Shown here: one piece after another, positions 10,611 through 20,643 of the stretch
How the letters are laid out: each line of letters begins with the position of its first letter
How positions within the stretch are numbered: position 1 is the stretch's first letter
Source of the DNA: a virus
Virus record (IMG/VR): IMGVR_UViG_3300005613_000490
Coordinates: 1 to 20,643 of that record
Reading direction: 5' to 3' (one strand)
DNA length: 20,643 nt
The notes under the pieces: generated by a model
Database searches by the model: none
What the model was told of the DNA's origin: nothing
What the model saw: the letters and a program-made list of their open reading frames with translations, nothing else
Translations under genes and position numbers: made by a program

Positions 10611-10636
10611 TATATTTATAATAAAAAATACAATAC

Positions 10637-11308
10637 ATGGGATATTTAAATAATCAAATCGTAACTATAGATGCCATCCTTACTAAAAAGGGTAGAGAAC
10701 TTTTAGCACGGGGTGATGGTTCTTTTAGAATTACCCAATTTGCCTTATCAGATGATGAAATAGATTATACTTTATATAATCCATCTCACCCTTCAGGTTC
10801 TGCTTTTTATGGGGAAGCCATTGAAAACATGCCTTTATTAGAAGCATTTCCAGATGAGACTCAAATATTAAAATATAAGTTAACTACACTACCTAGGGGT
10901 ACTGCTAAAATGCCTATTATTGATTTAGGATTAACAAATGTTAAGTTAGCCCAAACAGCTCAATTAACGATTACCCCACAAACCCTAAACTATTTAAATA
11001 ATACTCAAACATTTGAAACTTCAGGTTATACCTTTACTGTTTCTGATGTTAGATTATTTAGCACATTTAATGGAACTGGGATTAATACAGATAATGCTCA
11101 AGCTTTAAATTCAACCCAAACATTTGGAACTAATGTATCTAAAACAGTAATAGGAACCTCATTGAGTTTAAGAGCAACAGGCGTAAACACTTTATTTGGA
11201 ACTAATACAGCACTATATGCAACCCTAAGTGTTGTAGGTAGAGATAGTGGAGCCCGTTTACAAATCCCAGTTCAAATCACTAAAACAACAGCTACAGTTA
11301 CAGCTTAA
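10637..11308 (+). CDS. Virion structural protein with C-terminal Ig-like segment
   Basis: A 223-residue protein. Residues 1-105 form a distinctive block: GYLNNQIVTIDAILTKKGRE, LLARGDGSFRITQFALSDDE and an ILKYKLTTLPRGTAKMPIID stretch. From memory this head domain occurs in tail-region proteins of environmental myoviruses, but I do not have a family name for it. Residues about 110-223 are all beta: repeated T/L/N strands such as AQLTITPQTLNYL and ATLSVVGRDSGARLQIPVQI, resembling an Ig-like domain of the kind often displayed on phage surfaces. The start lies 26 nt after the preceding stop in an A/T-only gap (10611-10636). The next gene follows after 11 nt. Probably a tail or baseplate decoration protein; the exact function is unknown. 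Confidence 0.75.
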   Translation: MGYLNNQIVTIDAILTKKGRELLARGDGSFRITQFALSDDEIDYTLYNPSHPSGSAFYGEAIENMPLLEAFPDETQILKYKLTTLPRGTAKMPIIDLGLTNVKLAQTAQLTITPQTLNYLNNTQTFETSGYTFTVSDVRLFSTFNGTGINTDNAQALNSTQTFGTNVSKTVIGTSLSLRATGVNTLFGTNTALYATLSVVGRDSGARLQIPVQITKTTATVTA

Positions 11309-14806: not shown

Positions 14807-15576
14807 GTAAAAAGATTATTAAAAAATCATATAATAGAATATTAGAAATATCAGAAGATGCCCAGCAAATAACTCTTCCCGATTCTCGTTACTATAAAAG
14901 AAACGGGGAATATTACCCTTCCGTAACATATGTTTTGGGTTATTATCCTAAAGGAGCATATTTTGAAGACTGGTTAAAAAAAGTAGGTTATTCTTCAGAA
15001 CACATAGTAAAGAAAGCAGCAGAGCAAGGAACCCAAGTGCATGAAATGGCTGAAGCTTATCTTCTAGGAGAGGAATTAAATTTTTTAAATCAATGGAATA
15101 AACCTCAATACCACCCAGATGTCTGGCAAATGTTCTTAAGATTTGTTGATTGGTGGGAAGAATATAACCCCACGTTAATTGAAACTGAAGTTCATCTATT
15201 TTCAGATGAGTTAAAGGTTGCAGGTACTTGTGATTTGGTGTGTGAAATTGATAATGAATTGTGGGTAATAGATTTAAAAACATCTAACAGTCTACAAACA
15301 ACATATGAATTGCAAGCTGCAGTCTACGCTAAATGTTATGAAGAATGTTTTGGAAAAAAAGTAGATAGGTTGGGAATTTTATGGTTAAAATCTAATAAAA
15401 GAAAAGCTGTAAAAGGTAAAATGCAAGGTAAAGGGTGGGAAATGTTTGAATCTTCTCGCTCTCAAGAAGAAAATATTGATATTTTTAAAACAGTTAAAAG
15501 ATTATTTGATTTAGAAAACCCTAAACATTCTCCCATTTTTACTGAATTTAAAACCAAAGTAAAAAGAAAGTTGTAA
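14803..15576 (+). CDS. PD-(D/E)XK nuclease, RecB/Cas4-like exonuclease
   Basis: A 257-residue protein with the ordered motifs of RecB-type nucleases: GTQVHEMAEAYL with H80 (the histidine motif), E127/E129 before HLF, GTCDLVCEID with D144, WVIDLKTSN with D157 and K159 (the D/E-x-K motif), and YELQAAVYA with Q171 and Y175. The N terminus (NGEYYPSVTYVLGYYPKGA) is the usual entry segment of phage exonucleases of this type. I see no cysteine cluster of the kind that marks iron-sulphur Cas4 proteins. Likely role: trimming DNA ends in recombination, replication restart or host DNA breakdown. It overlaps the primase gene by 4 nt, supporting a replication/recombination role. T4 uses gp46/47 for end resection, so this is not a direct T4 counterpart. 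Confidence 0.88.
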   Translation: MSKKIIKKSYNRILEISEDAQQITLPDSRYYKRNGEYYPSVTYVLGYYPKGAYFEDWLKKVGYSSEHIVKKAAEQGTQVHEMAEAYLLGEELNFLNQWNKPQYHPDVWQMFLRFVDWWEEYNPTLIETEVHLFSDELKVAGTCDLVCEIDNELWVIDLKTSNSLQTTYELQAAVYAKCYEECFGKKVDRLGILWLKSNKRKAVKGKMQGKGWEMFESSRSQEENIDIFKTVKRLFDLENPKHSPIFTEFKTKVKRKL

Positions 15577-15598
15577 TATTTATAACCAAAAGTAGAGC

Positions 15599-16312
15599 AT
15601 GCAACCCAACATTTACAATTTCTTCAAATTTCTAGAGGATAAGGAGGGCAGACCCATTCCTTTTAAAACCAAACTCATCTATGCTCCTGAAACTCTCACT
15701 CCTAAGGACTTAAATGTAAAAGGTAATCTTGATTTAGAAAATACTCCAATTACATCTTTACCTGAAGGTTTAACAGTAAGAGGTTCTCTTGATTTATATA
15801 ATTGTAAAAATCTTACATCTTTACCTAAAGGTTTAAAAGTGGAAGGTCATCTTTTTTTAAACAACATTCCAATTACATCTTTACCTAAAGATTTACAAGT
15901 AGGAGGTTATATTAGTTTAATAAATACTAAAATTACATCTTTACCTGAAGGTTTACAAGTGGGAGGTTCTCTTGATTTAACAAATACTAAAATTACATCT
16001 TTACCTGAAGGTTTACAAGTGGGAGGCTATCTTGATTTATCAAACACTCCAATTACATCTTTACCTAATGATTTAATAGTGGGGGGTGATCTTTATTTAA
16101 GAAATACCCCAATTACATCTTTACCTGAAGGTTTAAAAGTGGGAGGTTCTCTTGATTTATATAATTGTAAAAATCTTACATCTTTACCTAAAGGTTTAAA
16201 AGTGGAAGGTAATCTTTATTTAGCAAATACTCCTCTCGCTAAAAAATCTGATGAAAAGATAAAAGATATGATTGGACCTACCGGATTTATAAAAGGCAAA
16301 ATTATTAGATAA
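15599..16312 (+). CDS. Leucine-rich-repeat protein, complete
   Basis: A 237-residue protein. Residues 1-38 are a non-repeat cap (NIYNFFKFLEDKEGRPIPFK, then TKLIYAPETLTP). Residues 39-200 are eight LRR units of 20 residues (21 in units 2 and 8) with the pattern xVxGxLxLxNTxITSLPxGL. Residues 201-237 are a partial unit plus a charged tail ending GFIKGKIIR. No signal peptide or membrane segment is visible. LRR arrays form curved solenoids that usually bind proteins; the target here is unknown. The fragment at 2-160 is a close paralogue. It sits 22 nt after the nuclease stop and 14 nt before the next ORF. Units 2 and 8 are encoded by identical DNA, a sign of recent copying within the gene. Possible roles include host interaction or counter-defence, but neither is shown by the sequence. 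Confidence 0.85.
   Translation: MQPNIYNFFKFLEDKEGRPIPFKTKLIYAPETLTPKDLNVKGNLDLENTPITSLPEGLTVRGSLDLYNCKNLTSLPKGLKVEGHLFLNNIPITSLPKDLQVGGYISLINTKITSLPEGLQVGGSLDLTNTKITSLPEGLQVGGYLDLSNTPITSLPNDLIVGGDLYLRNTPITSLPEGLKVGGSLDLYNCKNLTSLPKGLKVEGNLYLANTPLAKKSDEKIKDMIGPTGFIKGKIIR
15713..16198 (+). repeat. 60-bp coding repeats of the LRR gene (eight units)
   Basis: Eight tandem units of 60 bp (63 bp for two of them) encode the LRR solenoid. The core TTACATCTTTACC recurs once per unit. Units 4-6 share long identical stretches with exact 60-bp spacing. Confidence 0.9.
15781..15847 (+). repeat. Perfect 67-bp direct repeat, copy A
   Basis: These 67 bases are identical to 16144-16210, 363 bp downstream in the same gene. 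They encode the LRR unit with the variant core YNCKNLTSLPKGL and its flanks. Synonymous sites are identical as well, so this is recent duplication or gene conversion and not only protein-level selection. Confidence 0.9.
16144..16210 (+). repeat. Perfect 67-bp direct repeat, copy B
   Basis: Second copy of the 67-bp sequence at 15781-15847. The flanking units differ, which places the boundaries of the copied tract within a few bases of the ends given. Confidence 0.9.
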
Positions 16313-16368
16313 ATAAAATAAACATTATGAAACGATCACAATTAAAAGAACTTATTAGAGAAGAAATT
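16221..16368 (+). repeat. Dispersed repeat, copy 2: LRR end, spacer and start of small ORF
   Basis: Counterpart of 69-215, about 16.15 kb away in the same orientation. The shared segment covers the last LRR partial unit and tail, the stop codon, a 14-nt spacer and the MKxSQLKxLI start of the next gene. Confidence 0.8.
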
Positions 16369-16596
16369 ATATCTCTATTACAAGAAGAAACTACAACAAA
16401 AGAACCTATTACTAAACCTAAACCCAATACCTCTCCTGATACTGATACCAAACCCCGACCTCCCCAACGTCGTCGTAAATTAACTCCAAGTACGACCCCA
16501 GAAGAAGCTCCTAAAAAAAGACCAGCTAAAGCTTATTTTACTGAAGCTATGATAGATAAAATCATTCAAAGATATGAAAAAGGAAAAAAACAATGA
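16327..16596 (+). CDS. Small basic proline-rich protein with MKxSQLK N-terminal tag
   Basis: An 89-residue protein of unknown function. Residues 1-20 are an amphipathic helix (MKRSQLKELIREEIISLLQE) that matches the start of the ORF at 174. Residues 21-70 are a disordered, basic linker rich in P, T, K and R (KPKPNTSPDTDTKPRPPQRR). Residues 70-89 are a second short helix (AYFTEAMIDKIIQRYEKGKK). The strong positive charge would suit contact with DNA or with the very acidic prohead core protein encoded downstream, but this is only a suggestion. The gene lies 14 nt after the LRR stop and overlaps the following gene by 4 nt (ATGA at 16593-16596). Confidence 0.75.
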   Translation: MKRSQLKELIREEIISLLQEETTTKEPITKPKPNTSPDTDTKPRPPQRRRKLTPSTTPEEAPKKRPAKAYFTEAMIDKIIQRYEKGKKQ

Positions 16597-17630
16597 AAAG
16601 CCTAAAAGAAGTTTCCTATAAGGATATTTTATCTCCTAAGGCAATGCAGAGTTTATCCAAACAATCTGCAGATAGCCTTCGACAAATGATTTCAGGTGAT
16701 GTTAGAGGAGCTATGATGAAATCTATGTCTATTCTTCAAGAAGTAATGGAAATAGAAAAACCATATAGAAAAGAACTCGAACAGCTTGCCGTAGATATAG
16801 TTAAAGAATTATATGGTATTATTGGAGATAATGCTATTGAAATTGAAGCTCAACTTACAGACAATATTAACATTGAGATTACACAAGATGAAACTCCTGT
16901 TAAAAATGTAGATAATATTGATGATTTATTAAATTCATTTTCAATAGGTTCAGATGTTGTGGGAGGGGAAGCCAAAAGAAGGTTAATTAATAGTATTACA
17001 CAAGGAGCAGCAATTCGTGGTTCATTTGCTTTCCATTTATTTAAAAATAAATTAGACGAAATATCACCACAATTGGTTGAAAAATATGGAGAGTTATTAA
17101 ATTTAGCATACGGAATATATGATGACGATAACACCATAGCTATGATGTTAGCGATGCTTGCTAATAATCAACAAACCAATGGTGGTGAATCAGAAGCTGT
17201 ATACAATGAAGCTGAAGATAAATTTATAATAAAAGCTAAAGCTTTAATATTTCCCATCCTATTACAAGAAATAATTAAAGGTTTATATGAAATAGTATCT
17301 CTACAAGGATTTTCTTCAGATGTAGAACGTAATAAAGATATTGTAAAAACAACAGACTTATCAACAAATGAACCTGAAGATATACGTTATGGTAAATTTA
17401 TATATGACGCTCTAAACAGATTATATGATGAATATGGTTCTGAAGATGCACGTGAAAGAGAATACTTCTTATCAGATCTATACAAACTCCCAGAATCAGA
17501 GTTTATTCCATACATTGATAATTTAATTCAGAATAAACTTACCCCCGAACAAAAACGTTGGGCTCAAGATACTTTTGATGAAATTAAGGTAGATTTAAGA
17601 AAAGATGATACTGGTTTAGAAGATTTATAA
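16593..17630 (+). CDS. Helical protein of unknown function before the capsid unit
   Basis: A 345-residue, mostly helical and acidic protein. Visible parts are SYKDILSPKAMQSLSKQSAD at the start, KPYRKELEQLAVDIVKELYG near residue 55, a central ALIFPILLQEIIKGLYEIVS helix pair near residue 215, and RLYDEYGSEDAREREYFLSD followed by a LTPEQKRWAQDTFDEI end. One hydrophobic stretch (IFPILLQEIIKGLYEIV) is too amphipathic for a confident membrane segment. I do not recognise the family; I looked for protease (gp21-like) and portal features and saw none. It is the last gene before the terminator at 17671-17700, so it ends the long upstream transcription unit. Neighbouring head genes suggest a head-assembly role, but only by position. 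Confidence 0.78.
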   Translation: MKSLKEVSYKDILSPKAMQSLSKQSADSLRQMISGDVRGAMMKSMSILQEVMEIEKPYRKELEQLAVDIVKELYGIIGDNAIEIEAQLTDNINIEITQDETPVKNVDNIDDLLNSFSIGSDVVGGEAKRRLINSITQGAAIRGSFAFHLFKNKLDEISPQLVEKYGELLNLAYGIYDDDNTIAMMLAMLANNQQTNGGESEAVYNEAEDKFIIKAKALIFPILLQEIIKGLYEIVSLQGFSSDVERNKDIVKTTDLSTNEPEDIRYGKFIYDALNRLYDEYGSEDAREREYFLSDLYKLPESEFIPYIDNLIQNKLTPEQKRWAQDTFDEIKVDLRKDDTGLEDL

Positions 17631-17646
17631 TACCCCTCCCTTCCTT

Positions 17647-17668
17647 TTTTAGGGTTTTTATCCTAAAA
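17647..17668 (+). other. AT-rich hairpin just upstream of the terminator
   Basis: TTTTAGG (17647-17653) pairs with CCTAAAA (17662-17668), with a further G-T wobble and a 6-nt loop. There is no T tract after it, so it is not a terminator alone. It stands 2 nt before the strong terminator stem and may protect the 3' end of the message or help RNA polymerase pause. Confidence 0.55.
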
Positions 17669-17670
17669 TT

Positions 17671-17700
17671 AAACGCTCTCGAAAGAGAGCGTTTTTTTTT
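17671..17700 (+). terminator. Intrinsic terminator ending the upstream transcription unit
   Basis: CGCTCTC (17674-17680) and GAGAGCG (17685-17691) form a 7-bp GC-rich stem closed by a GAAA tetraloop, extended by three A-T pairs and followed by a run of nine T (17692-17700). This is a textbook rho-independent terminator 40 nt after the stop of the 345-residue gene. It separates that gene from the capsid unit. Confidence 0.93.
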
Positions 17701-17720
17701 ACGGCAGAGGCGATTTTTGA

Positions 17721-17748
17721 TTGCCTTTGCTATATGTATTACTATAAT
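17721..17748 (+). promoter_or_regulatory. Putative promoter of the capsid transcription unit
   Basis: The spacing TTGCCT (17721-17726), 16 bp, TATAAT (17743-17748) fits a sigma-70-like promoter, directly after a strong terminator and 90 nt before the prohead core gene. A second possible -35, TTGATT (17717-17722), is 20 bp from the -10 and less good. A T4-type late box TATAAATA is not present, nor is the Bacteroidota TAnnTTTG box that I looked for. In A/T-rich DNA such matches can be chance; the location is the main support. Confidence 0.5.
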
Positions 17749-17769
17749 ATGTCATGTGATATATGACAT
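17749..17769 (+). promoter_or_regulatory. Inverted repeat at the expected transcription start (possible operator)
   Basis: ATGTCAT (17749-17755) and ATGACAT (17763-17769) are perfect inverted arms around a 7-nt centre, GTGATAT, which could add a T-A and a G-T pair in RNA. The element directly abuts the putative -10 box. It could be an operator for a repressor or activator, or the first hairpin of the capsid mRNA leader. Confidence 0.5.
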
Positions 17770-17773
17770 CTCT

Positions 17774-17813
17774 CTACGCATTAATTTTTATTACGTTTCT
17801 TTAATAAGCGTAG
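17774..17813 (+). promoter_or_regulatory. Leader hairpin of the capsid mRNA
   Basis: CTACGC (17774-17779) pairs with GCGTAG (17808-17813). Inside, ATTAA (17780-17784) can pair with TTAAT (17801-17805) after a two-A bulge. The apical part is A/T-rich. Together with the preceding inverted repeat, the 5' leader would be largely paired up to 24 nt before the start codon at 17838, which could stabilise an abundant late message. Confidence 0.45.
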
Positions 17814-17837
17814 TTCCCGAAGTAAATTTTTGGAAAT

Positions 17838-18917
17838 ATGAATCGAGATTTTTTAAAAGAGGCTATTGCCGATGCAAAGGCTGTGAAAGAATCTGCTATT
17901 GCAAATGCAAAAGTTGCCTTAGAAGAAGCTTTTACTCCACAACTAAGATCCATGCTAGCTAAAAGGCTAGAAGAGATGGAAGATATGGATGAAGCCGAAG
18001 ATGTAGATGAAGGTTATGACAAGTCAGTAGACAAAATGGCTGAAATGGATGATGAAACTTATTTTGACAACCCAAATACAGACTGGAATGAAAGGGGGAA
18101 AAATTTTGATCGACCTGAAATACCCTACTATTACAATCCTGAGGAAGAAGAAATGAGTTTAGATCCTGAGGAAGAAGAAATGAGTTTAGAGGAAATTCTA
18201 GCTGAATTAGATGCTCTTAGTGAAGAAAACCCAGATGAAATAACCGAAGCTAAAGAAGACGAAGAAGCTGAGGAAGATGAAAAAGATGAAGAAGGTGAAA
18301 AAGAAGAAACCTTTGACATCGAAGAAATGTCTGAAGAGGATCTAACCAAATTCGTTGAAGAAGTTATTAAAGATATGGTTGAAGCTGGTGAGTTAGAAGC
18401 CGGTGAAGGACAACCAGGTGAAGAAGGAGCTGAAGGTGAAGGAGACATAGAACTTGACTTAGATGTTGAGGGCGATGAAACTGAAGAACCTGAAGTTACC
18501 AAAGAAGGATATAGTGAATTAGACGAAGAAAAAGAAGAAATGGAAGAAATGAAAGATGATTTAAAAGAAGCTTATAAAGCTATCAAGAGTCTTCGTTCAG
18601 AACTCCAAGAAGTAAATCTTTTAAACGCTAAGTTACTATACACCAATAAAATCTTTAGATCAAAATCATTAAATGATGCACAAAAGGTTAAAATTTTAGA
18701 AACTTTTGATAAGGCTACCACAGTAAACGAAGTAAAACTTGTTTATGAAACACTATCAGAAAGCTTATCTACAAACAACTTAAAGAAAAAATCAATTTCT
18801 GAAGGTATTGTAGGTTCTGCTTCAAAGAGTGCAGGTACCACACCACAAGCTAAAAAACCAATTGTAGAATCTAACGATATGGTTGCTAGATTCCAGAAGT
18901 TAGCTGGATTAAACTAA
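17838..18917 (+). CDS. gp22: Prohead core (scaffold) protein, gp22-like
   Basis: A 359-residue, extremely acidic protein directly before the major capsid gene, the position of the T4 scaffold gp22 (269 residues). The N terminus (LKEAIADAKAVKESAIANAK, VALEEAFTPQLRSML) is a helical segment I associate with scaffolds of T4-like environmental phages. Residues about 95-230 are a low-complexity D/E-rich region. Residues about 240-310 are a coiled coil, LKEAYKAIKSLRSELQEVNL then LNAKLLYTNKIF, typical of the gp22 C-terminal part. The end is DMVARFQKLAGLN. Scaffold proteins fill the prohead and are degraded by the gp21 protease before DNA packaging; no gp21 is in the window. Weak TGGA precedes the ATG. 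A 123-residue reverse-strand open frame here is an artefact of the GAA/GAT-rich sequence. Confidence 0.85.
   Translation: MNRDFLKEAIADAKAVKESAIANAKVALEEAFTPQLRSMLAKRLEEMEDMDEAEDVDEGYDKSVDKMAEMDDETYFDNPNTDWNERGKNFDRPEIPYYYNPEEEEMSLDPEEEEMSLEEILAELDALSEENPDEITEAKEDEEAEEDEKDEEGEKEETFDIEEMSEEDLTKFVEEVIKDMVEAGELEAGEGQPGEEGAEGEGDIELDLDVEGDETEEPEVTKEGYSELDEEKEEMEEMKDDLKEAYKAIKSLRSELQEVNLLNAKLLYTNKIFRSKSLNDAQKVKILETFDKATTVNEVKLVYETLSESLSTNNLKKKSISEGIVGSASKSAGTTPQAKKPIVESNDMVARFQKLAGLN
18136..18189 (+). repeat. Perfect 27-bp tandem duplication in the scaffold gene
   Basis: Two identical 27-bp units (18136-18162 and 18163-18189) encode PEEEEMSL twice in a row. Identity at all synonymous sites points to a recent slippage or duplication event in the acidic low-complexity region. 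Confidence 0.9.
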
Positions 18918-18955
18918 CAAAATTTTTAAACTTAACTTTTTAAATTCATAAACTT

Positions 18956-20572
18956 ATGAGTCAATTAAATTCTCTTTTAGAGAGCGCTAATCAGTACCAG
19001 ACTCTACAGTCTGATGCTGCTAGATTAGCCTCAAAATGGGAAAAAACTGGCCTACTTGAACAACTTTCCGGTGAAGCGGAAAAAGGTCATATGGCCATGA
19101 TTCTCGAAAACCAAGCTAAGCAATTAGTTACCGAAGCTAGTACAACTGGTGGGGGTGCTGGAGCTGGTACTTTTACTGCAGGAACAGGTGCCCAGTGGGC
19201 AGGTGTTGCTCTTCCATTGGTTAGAAAAATCTTTGGACAAATTGCAGCTAAAGAATTCGTTTCAGTTCAGCCAATGAACTTACCTTCAGGTCTTGTATTT
19301 TACCTAGACTTCCAGTATGGTACTACTAAATCACCTTTCACCGCTGGTGATTCAATGTACGGTGATACTGGTGGTAACTTACCATTCGGTAACACCAACA
19401 CTGGGGGTGCTTATGGAGCTGGTAGATTCGGTTTCTCAATCAACAATACCGCTTCAACTGTTCCAGCAACTAGTGCTTCTGCAAACTGGTATTCTGATAT
19501 GGGTGCTGATTCAACCTATTCTGCTTCTGCAGCTGCTGGTGATTACTGGACTGTTACTGTTGGCACTTCATCATTACCAAACCTTGATAAAGAAGCCGTT
19601 AGATCATTCCAGTTATTCTCTGGTTCAGCAACTCCAATCCAATTATCAGCATTTACTAGATTAACTGGGGCAAATGTAGTATTCGTTGTTTCAGCTTCAG
19701 ATGCAGGTTCACCAATTGGTAACGTAGATGTTTCCTACAGCTTACAACCAACTGATGCCAACAGAGGTGATTTTGAAGATGGTAACACATCATTAAACAG
19801 CCTCAACAACCCAATCTCCATTCCTGAGATTAACATCCAGATGAAGAGTGAGGCTATTGTTGCTAAAACAAGAAAGCTAAAGGCTGTATGGACACCAGAA
19901 TTTGCTCAGGACCTTAATGCATATCATGCATTAGATGCCGAAGCTGAATTAACAAGTATCATGAGCGAGTATATCTCATTAGAGATTGACCTCGAAATTC
20001 TTGATATGTTAATTGATTCAGCAGCAGCTGGAACTGAGTACTGGTCAGCAGTTAACAACCTTTCAATTGCTTCAACTGGTGTTGTAGATGCTGATTTAGG
20101 ATTCTTCAACACCCAAGGTCAATGGTTCCAAACCTTAGGTACTAAGATCCAAAAACTAAGCAACGTTATCCACCAGAAGACTTTAAGAGGTGGTGCTAAC
20201 TTCTTAGTATGCTCCCCAGCTGTAGCAACTATCCTTGAATCAATTCCTGGATTTGCTTCAAACTCAGATGGTGATGCCGCTAAGATGTCTTACGCCTTCG
20301 GTGTACAGAAAGCAGGTACCATGAACGGTAGATATAAGGTTTACAAGAACCCATACATGACTGAAAACACTATCCTATTAGGTTTCAGAGGTGGTCAGTT
20401 CTTGGAAGCAGGTGCTGTATTTGCTCCTTATATTCCGTTAATTATGACTCCGCTAGTGTACGACCCTGATACCTTTACCCCACGTAAAGGTCTATTAACT
20501 CGTTACGCTAAGAAAGTCGTAAGACCTGAATTCTATGCTAAGATTTATGTAAGTGGTTTAAACACTCTCTAA
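18956..20572 (+). CDS. gp23: Major capsid protein, gp23-like
   Basis: A 538-residue protein close in length to T4 gp23 (521). Diagnostic parts are MAMILENQAKQLVTEAS (residues 46-62), a hinge before VALPLVRKIFGQIAAKEFVS, VQPMNLPSGLVFYLDFQYGT (about 103-122), and the C-terminal FAPYIPLIMTPLVYDPDTFT, PRKGLLTRYAKKVVRPEFYA. In T4 the shell protein is matured by the gp21 protease after a glutamate near residue 65; here E60 in LVTE followed by A is a candidate site, by analogy only. An insert near residues 145-270 (Gly/Ser/Thr-rich) may be the surface-exposed insertion domain. The gene appears richer in C-ending codons and in GC than its neighbours, as expected for the most expressed virion protein. 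It follows the scaffold gene after 38 nt. Confidence 0.94.
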   Translation: MSQLNSLLESANQYQTLQSDAARLASKWEKTGLLEQLSGEAEKGHMAMILENQAKQLVTEASTTGGGAGAGTFTAGTGAQWAGVALPLVRKIFGQIAAKEFVSVQPMNLPSGLVFYLDFQYGTTKSPFTAGDSMYGDTGGNLPFGNTNTGGAYGAGRFGFSINNTASTVPATSASANWYSDMGADSTYSASAAAGDYWTVTVGTSSLPNLDKEAVRSFQLFSGSATPIQLSAFTRLTGANVVFVVSASDAGSPIGNVDVSYSLQPTDANRGDFEDGNTSLNSLNNPISIPEINIQMKSEAIVAKTRKLKAVWTPEFAQDLNAYHALDAEAELTSIMSEYISLEIDLEILDMLIDSAAAGTEYWSAVNNLSIASTGVVDADLGFFNTQGQWFQTLGTKIQKLSNVIHQKTLRGGANFLVCSPAVATILESIPGFASNSDGDAAKMSYAFGVQKAGTMNGRYKVYKNPYMTENTILLGFRGGQFLEAGAVFAPYIPLIMTPLVYDPDTFTPRKGLLTRYAKKVVRPEFYAKIYVSGLNTL

Positions 20573-20594
20573 TCTAAGTTAGAATAGATTTAAG

Positions 20595-20623
20595 GAAGCC
20601 CCGCGAAAGCGGGGCTTCTTTTT
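20595..20623 (+). terminator. Intrinsic terminator after the major capsid gene
   Basis: GAAGCCCCGC (20595-20604) and GCGGGGCTTC (20609-20618) form a perfect 10-bp stem closed by GAAA, followed by five T. It lies 22 nt after the capsid stop. Like the upstream terminator it uses a C-GAAA-G tetraloop. It closes the capsid unit. Confidence 0.95.
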
Positions 20624-20643
20624 ATATGTATAATTAAATGTTG

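Follow-up and report, generated by a model that had tools for sequence, protein, structure and literature searches.

A conserved pair of covarying hairpins before the gp22-gp23 capsid genes of T4-related water phages, very probably an RNA control element

Twin hairpins upstream of gp22-gp23

The viral DNA analyzed here (positions 1 to 20,643 of IMG/VR record IMGVR_UViG_3300005613_000490; hereafter the window, 20,643 nt) carries on its plus strand, directly before the genes for a prohead scaffold protein (gp22) and the major capsid protein (gp23), a non-coding leader with two hairpins of one design, P1 (17749-17769) and P2 (17792-17812). In a large group of T4-related water phages the letters of both stems are free to change while the helices are kept, and comparative sequence analysis indicates that P1 and P2 are very probably an RNA control element. 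Helices maintained by compensatory change upstream of one gene, the mark of a cis-regulatory leader RNA, are what the relatives present. A first-pass annotation, made from the letters of the window alone, had proposed a compact control region for gp22-gp23 with a promoter and a structured leader; that layout does recur before gp22 in relatives, with stems that covary, whereas the promoter and the second hairpin are placed differently below.

Relatives were sought through their proteins, since a DNA similarity search with window positions 16593-19200 against named phages returned no match. Two protein searches yielded 98 loci, and a gp22 start and an upstream frame could be set for 85 records, counting the window and its slice L001; these gave 75 distinct leader strings, one of them empty (L013) and some shortened by spurious upstream frames. 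By eye, relatives share one layout before gp22, which opens with a box (ATATACGTAT or similar) and AAT; two hairpins separated by a spacer follow, and then the gp22 start. Removal of near-identical sequences reduced 69 distinct leaders to 52, of which 50 entered alignment A1 (MAFFT, structure not used), with L019 and L101 excluded as divergent. Alignment A2 holds 100 leaders that were chosen by hand rather than at random and fitted to a covariance model (R1), and A1 is thus the less biased test.

Without guidance, RNAalifold proposed both P1 and P2 on A1 (13 pairs, 11 with compensatory change). Across 14 pairs in A1, 98.7% of 700 cells are paired, 12 pairs have two-sided changes, and the covariation score is 0.463 against 0.192 in shuffles, a value that 0 of 500 shuffles reached and that fell to 0.132 or less when the pairing was slid; further pair types numbered 22 in this alignment, about what shuffles give (21.2). 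In A2, 98.9% of 1381 cells pair (99.1% in P1, 98.7% in P2), all 14 pairs have changed on both sides (seven of seven in each stem), covariation is 0.746 versus 0.204, and RNAalifold again returned P1 and P2, with 13 of 13 pairs compensatory. The middle pairs of both stems have four or more pair types each. Since related sequences inflate covariation counts, pair types were also mapped onto a gp23 tree (one midpoint-rooted FastTree of 98 taxa, with L015 and L019 excluded as too short and non-standard pair cells left out of the count), where a single parsimony reconstruction gave 165 two-sided versus 30 one-sided changes. At the finest scale, L049 and L050 are identical over 113 nt save for one P1 pair, which has changed on both sides. 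The alignment of the leader across relatives that the first-pass annotation had suggested as a check is thereby passed by P1 and P2. Cells with G.U outnumber those with A.C by 9 to 2 in A1 (13 pairs) and by 32 to 3 in A2, where the fit favors G.U; this excess argues that the hairpins act as RNA of the coding strand and not as a DNA palindrome.

In the window, P1 pairs 17749-17755 with 17763-17769, gains two extra pairs and ends its loop in TAT; the inverted repeat annotated earlier at this place is present, with 9 pairs, and behaves as an RNA stem rather than a fixed DNA operator. Just 5' of it lies a conserved AAT (17746-17748; A 92, A 98 and T 98 of 100 A2 rows), possibly the first bases of the messenger. 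A spacer of 22 nt (17770-17791; 18-29 nt across the 100 A2 rows), ending in AT at 17790-17791, separates P1 from P2, which pairs 17792-17798 with 17806-17812 around the loop CTTTAAT. The leader then closes with an A/T-rich segment (17813-17837) containing a short GGA that is a ribosome-binding candidate (G 67/92, G 76/90 and A 95/98 in the A2 columns). The 137 nt at 17701-17837 fold to −36.8 kcal/mol, whereas dinucleotide shuffles average −21.9 kcal/mol (z −5.0) and none of 200 folds as low; part of this energy comes from a 13-pair hairpin at 17703-17731 that the first-pass annotation did not include. This additional hairpin, between the upstream terminator and the late-type box described below, was scored as terminator-like though it has no long T run, and it was not recognized by eye among the leaders of relatives.

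Two other candidate stems fared differently. The longer hairpin initially marked at 17774-17813 (17774-17784 with 17801-17813) can pair in the window sequence, where it competes with P2 through a shared 3' arm, but it is not conserved: 44.1% of its A1 cells pair (shuffles 45.0%), with a covariation of 0.032 versus 0.038 in shuffles, and the conserved second stem is the one at 17792-17812. Likewise unsupported was a third hairpin, one that would cover the ribosome site (17818-17822 with 17828-17832; 58.0% of A1 cells paired versus 60.3% when shuffled).

Beyond pairing, P1 and P2 follow the same plan of AU, seven pairs, a loop ending in AU, and seven pairs. The AT before the stem is found in 96 of 100 A2 rows for P1 and in all 100 for P2, and the AT at the loop end in 88 and 95, respectively; all four are present together in 81 of 100 rows, while in the spacer AT makes up 283 of 1831 dinucleotides (15.5%). 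Loops measure 6-7 nt in 48 (P1) and 72 (P2) of the 100 rows, and the commonest P2 loops are CTTAAT (13), CTCAAT (7), CCTAAT (6) and CCCAAT (5). Because these unpaired AU letters are shared while the stems vary, we read P1 and P2 as two putative sites of one binding factor.

Distribution of the leader

In the first set of 71 sources, covariance model R1 matched at the leader position in 70. Among these, L005 is cut by the contig end and L102 (E 0.034) and L101 (E 0.089) are weak, the other three of the 73 rows being weak minus-strand matches; Rhodothermus phage RM378 was the sole miss, and its unfiltered score is E 1.3, at the expected position. The same leader is carried by Flavobacterium phage immuto, a cultured isolate (E 6e-6). 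Further protein searches with the gp23 of immuto and of Microcystis phage Mel-JY01 gave 160 loci, of which 145 were scanned and 15 excluded by eye as repeats of contigs already included, close copies, or contigs cut near gp23. The immuto set was matched in 53 of 71 loci, 52 of them at E 0.01 or better, and in none of the 18 misses does the sequence upstream of the gp23 match exceed 1,244 nt, a stretch in which the leader is cut or absent in most. The Mel-JY01 set had a plus-strand match in 51 of 74 (E up to 0.24), with one additional minus-strand match. Each of the 104 plus-strand matches in the two later sets has, no more than 80 nt downstream, a frame of 180 aa or longer that stops short of gp23. 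Thirteen of the 23 Mel-JY01-set misses were rescanned unfiltered, and 12 of them had their best match immediately ahead of the gp22-position gene on the plus strand, with E values of 0.03 to 0.5 that are not far from background (minus-strand matches from E 0.58); of the other misses, L296, L307 and L310 were inspected by eye only and seven have at most 1,101 nt upstream.

When whole records were scanned, 13 of 14 and 12 of 12 were matched; the leader gave the best score in each, and nothing else fell below E 0.4. These scans include several fragmentary records, and in some records scoring stopped at 150 first-look candidates. Record LR756508 was matched, unfiltered, at E 0.0036 directly before a 559-aa frame ending before gp23. 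In contrast to these, no match at E ≤10 was obtained, unfiltered, in T4, three other T4-like phages (Aeromonas phage 25, Sinorhizobium phage phiM9 and Vibrio phage R10Z), or the cyanomyoviruses S-CAM9, S-SRM01 and S-SSM6a, whose gaps before gp22 are 84 nt or less. In metagenomic contigs, the covariance model also serves as a marker of where the gp22-gp23 unit begins.

A candidate late promoter

About 10 bp upstream of P1 lies a late-type box, ATATGTAT (17732-17739, plus strand; ATATACGTAT is its commonest form in relatives), with T-rich positions further upstream at 17715-17718. Its A-T-A..T-A-T letters are identical in 73 of 73 anchored leaders, though the anchoring used the same motif; L014 to L018 fell outside that pattern, and L014, L015, L016 and L018 were scanned with the covariance model. 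A search of 863 kb of loci for the fuller motif A[CT]ATA[CT]GTAT gave 76 occurrences, with copies of one contig counted separately; 70 fall at the counted gp22 leaders and one more at the leader of immuto. Within 200 nt 3' of gp23, ATA[CT][TG]TAT is found on the plus strand in 129 of 147 distinct regions and on the minus strand in 10, where base shuffles expect 11.5. The window has seven plus-strand copies, four of which fall within its 443 non-coding bases, and two minus-strand copies, each in coding sequence; besides the capsid leader, the plus-strand copies include 20624-20631, directly after the terminator 3' of gp23, 15576-15583, in the gap before the gene at 15599, and 10612-10619, in the gap before the gene at 10637. 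Given this enrichment 3' of gp23, at the leaders and in the window gaps, ATA[CT][TG]TAT looks like the late promoter of the lineage, and the box at 17732-17739 would be used as such.

The T4 late promoter box is TATAAATA. Both it and the box described here are short, AT-rich and placed before late gene units, but the sequence differs, and TATAAATA is absent from the plus strand of the window, as the first-pass annotation had observed. Its suggestion that this phage times its capsid genes in another way stands in part: ATA[CT][TG]TAT, as a putative promoter, also follows gp23 and precedes other gene blocks. The sigma-70-like promoter proposed at 17721-17748 does not stand: relatives drop TTGCCT and keep only the AAT of TATAAT, and ATATGTAT is the conserved element. 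Moreover, TTGCCT-16-TATAAT (10 of 12 letters) is the best of 13 such sites in 15000-20643, and alone it is no evidence of a promoter, as shuffles yield more of them (20 on average).

Spacing suggests where transcription would begin. Of the 76 A2 rows with a canonical box (ATA[CT][TGA]TAT), 70 have P1 starting 8-11 nt beyond it, and 2 of 100 rows have a box between P1 and gp22. The ATG of a long frame stands exactly 6 nt after the box in 14 regions 3' of gp23 (L044, L065 and L068 are examples), so that the messenger there would be almost leaderless. If the box is a promoter and that codon is used, transcription starts at or before that point, which would put P1 wholly inside the capsid messenger, at or very near its 5' end; the start site would then lie before P1.

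A sigma factor of PHROG 1740 was considered as a common late factor and set aside, being present in 2 of 10 records (RM378 and G002); gp55 was not searched with a model of its own. In RM378 (L103, 981-1900) the gp22-position gene has this sigma factor gene a short way upstream, and its leader shows two hairpins by eye, set between two copies of a AAATATAT..TTAAATTTGA word. Other records hold different repeated elements. At about 10000-70000 of G001 (L137-L140), TTGG, some 19 nt and CGTATATTG recur in some dozen gaps, often after GTCAT, a layout that we take to resemble host-type early promoters of Bacteroidota phage and that would fit a Bacteroidota host. In immuto (W01, about 67000-77000), letters resembling TATATTTAGGTATCAATAATTAAAAC immediately precede the next gene in a dozen or so gaps and form a promoter-like repeat of a different kind.

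Proposed function and alternatives

Functionally, we posit that transcription of gp22-gp23 is driven by the box at 17732-17739 and begins a few bases ahead of P1, which would make P1 the 5'-terminal hairpin of the messenger and place P2 about 25 bases before the gp22 start codon. Working as RNA in the capsid messenger, both hairpins would be bound by one phage-encoded RNA-binding factor that sets the translation or lifetime of the scaffold-capsid messenger, and P1 would also block decay that depends on the 5' end. We place the probability of this combined reading, with a late promoter before P1, both hairpins as RNA sites of one phage factor and P1 as a 5' shield, at roughly 60%. The factor is likelier encoded by the phage than by the host, since the element is common to phages recorded from Flavobacterium and from Microcystis.

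Several observations weigh against this reading. The link beyond Flavobacterium rests on Mel-JY01, where the model score is weak (E 0.03-0.11), albeit in the right place. No canonical box is found in the aligned part of 24 of the 100 A2 rows. L233 has no model match even unfiltered, and in a clade of 15 loci within L281-L310 (the 12 rescanned misses plus L296, L307 and L310) the AU before P2 and at the P1 loop end are by eye not kept, though the two-hairpin layout and a P2 loop of CTTAAT or CTAAT are retained. A regulon of such hairpins was not found in G001, G002, G003 or immuto, where whole-record counts are about as in shuffles; upstream of genes, the strict pattern picked up only parts of the gp22 leader, one unrelated repeat and two hairpins of terminator-like form, and in immuto it matched nothing. 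Finally, when the window is folded as a single sequence, the outer pairs of the long stem reach probabilities of 0.90-0.95 and P2 one of 0.05. As the window keeps the conserved P2 letters despite a fold that favors the long stem, either the prediction misleads or the window phage has an added switch.

Among the alternatives, the most serious, though we consider it clearly the lesser possibility, is that the hairpins are passive, with P1 slowing decay of an abundant messenger at the 5' end and P2 keeping the ribosome site open, and no dedicated protein involved. P1 does adjoin the likely transcript start and its stem letters do vary, and a stabilizing role for P1 is plausible on positional grounds. 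The bacterial ompA messenger has a 5'-terminal stabilizing stem-loop, which P1 resembles in lying a few bases from its probable 5' end; the phage leader differs in its second hairpin and its near-invariant unpaired AU, and its start is deduced from the spacing of the box. Stabilization does not account for these AU letters, which at P2 are kept before the stem in every A2 row and at the loop end in 95, and which stability alone would not need; P2, furthermore, is not at the 5' end.

A bolder and still less probable version of the protein-bound leader is that P1 and P2 form a tandem operator of a new type, gripped by a dimeric phage protein. A helix of free sequence with AU 5' of both strands could have a two-fold symmetry that can be gripped from both ends, and if the protein were gp22 or gp23 the regulatory loop would close. 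Were this so, a major lineage of T4-related water phages would throughout match its scaffold and capsid synthesis to assembly.

Antitermination, in which the leader RNA would alter the polymerase, is improbable. In lambdoid phages, put (as in HK022) and nut (as in lambda) involve hairpins at the start of a transcript, and two hairpins directly after a promoter-like box recall that arrangement, in a comparison of layout alone. Unlike those systems, the two-gene unit keeps a terminator right after gp23: a terminator-like site was found in 143 of 147 regions 3' of gp23 (other strand, 8), mostly accompanied by a new late box, and an antiterminating polymerase would ignore such a terminator. CTCTTA is a boxA-like motif, and a boxA likeness of the P1 loop was dropped as not general (CTCTTA in 4 of 100 loops). 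Equally improbable is RNA processing, by which a nuclease would cut the spacer and leave P2 as the new 5' end; the spacer is A/T-rich and lies between two helices, as such cutting would have it, but its columns contain no strongly conserved cut motif. Least likely of all is a DNA operator at 17749-17769 bound by a dimeric repressor at a sigma-70 promoter: a 21-bp near-palindrome does stand beside TATAAT, but its arms change in step to many sequences, which leaves no constant DNA word, only the AAT of TATAAT is conserved, and G.U exceeds A.C in A1. The covariation speaks against such an operator as a general explanation.

Comparison with known leader elements

Structured leaders of phage messengers are known as a kind, and two hairpins of the same design starting the capsid messenger set this one apart. 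The T4 gene 43 translational operator is described as a hairpin upstream of the ribosome site, with conserved loop letters, that is bound by the product of its own gene (PMC3014915). The present leader shares with it phage hairpins upstream of a ribosome site and conserved loop letters; it differs in having two hairpins, before scaffold and capsid genes, with loops ending in AU. An operator of the gp43 type, that is, a UAAC or UAAA loop before a polymerase gene, was not found here, the element standing before gp22. In T4-like marine phages, the manA and wcaG RNAs of cyanophages are reported as structured RNAs linked to metabolic genes (PMC2864571). Unlike these, P1-P2 is covered by no Rfam family in 13 sources searched at relaxed thresholds, and the whole window had 0 matches to Rfam 15 at the gathering score. 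A description of this capsid leader was not found in the literature searched, a search whose coverage excluded most subscription journals.

Genomic context and phage identity

The leader belongs to the 207-nt gap at 17631-17837, the largest of ten intergenic gaps among the listed genes of the window, in agreement with the initial annotation, which had also noted a strong terminator right before the 137 nt. That intrinsic terminator is located at 17671-17694 on the plus strand, with a 10-pair stem, a 4-base loop and a T run to 17700, and should end the upstream transcript; in relatives, 30 of 73 anchored leaders have a terminator-like site in the 120 nt 5' of their box (other strand, 0). A sub-threshold suhB/mmgR Rfam match at 17635-17707 (37.9 bits; gathering 41) sits on this terminator and was taken as chance.

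Downstream, the unit opens with the gp22-like prohead scaffold gene (17838-18917, plus strand, 359 aa), which has no PHROG or Pfam match of its own and is gp22 by its place before gp23. The gp23 major capsid gene itself (18956-20572, plus strand) is identified with certainty (PHROG 138, E 1.2e-73; Pfam PF07068, E 1.6e-77) and is followed by a predicted strong terminator at 20592-20623 on the same strand. Evolutionarily, the closest named relative of this gp23 is that of Flavobacterium phage immuto (58% identity), then Mel-JY01 (53%), two uncultured phages (49% and 38%) and RM378 (37%), and the remaining matches listed are T4-like phages, mostly of enterobacteria, Aeromonas, Acinetobacter or Synechococcus, at 27-35% over part of the protein. 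RM378 is described as the sole isolate of the Far-T4-like viruses, with marine Far-T4 viruses linked to Bacteroidetes (PMC7198788), and the phages studied here would belong with, or next to, the Far-T4 group, a name that we apply from these gp23 similarities and not from a tree including T4. Roux et al. (2015, PMC4360716) raised the possibility that Far-T4 transcription patterns might differ from those of T4. The group is common in water, and its transcription had been left unsettled; it now has a candidate late-promoter box and a candidate capsid RNA element, both of them present in a cultured phage, immuto.

Directly upstream of the gap, the gene at 16593-17630 (345 aa) has no PHROG or Pfam match and no tblastn match among the loci compared, where the upstream frame is mostly about 200 aa. 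In Mel-JY01 (L101, 1140-1367), a gene annotated as ribosomal protein S21 lies between the prohead protease and the gp22-position gene.
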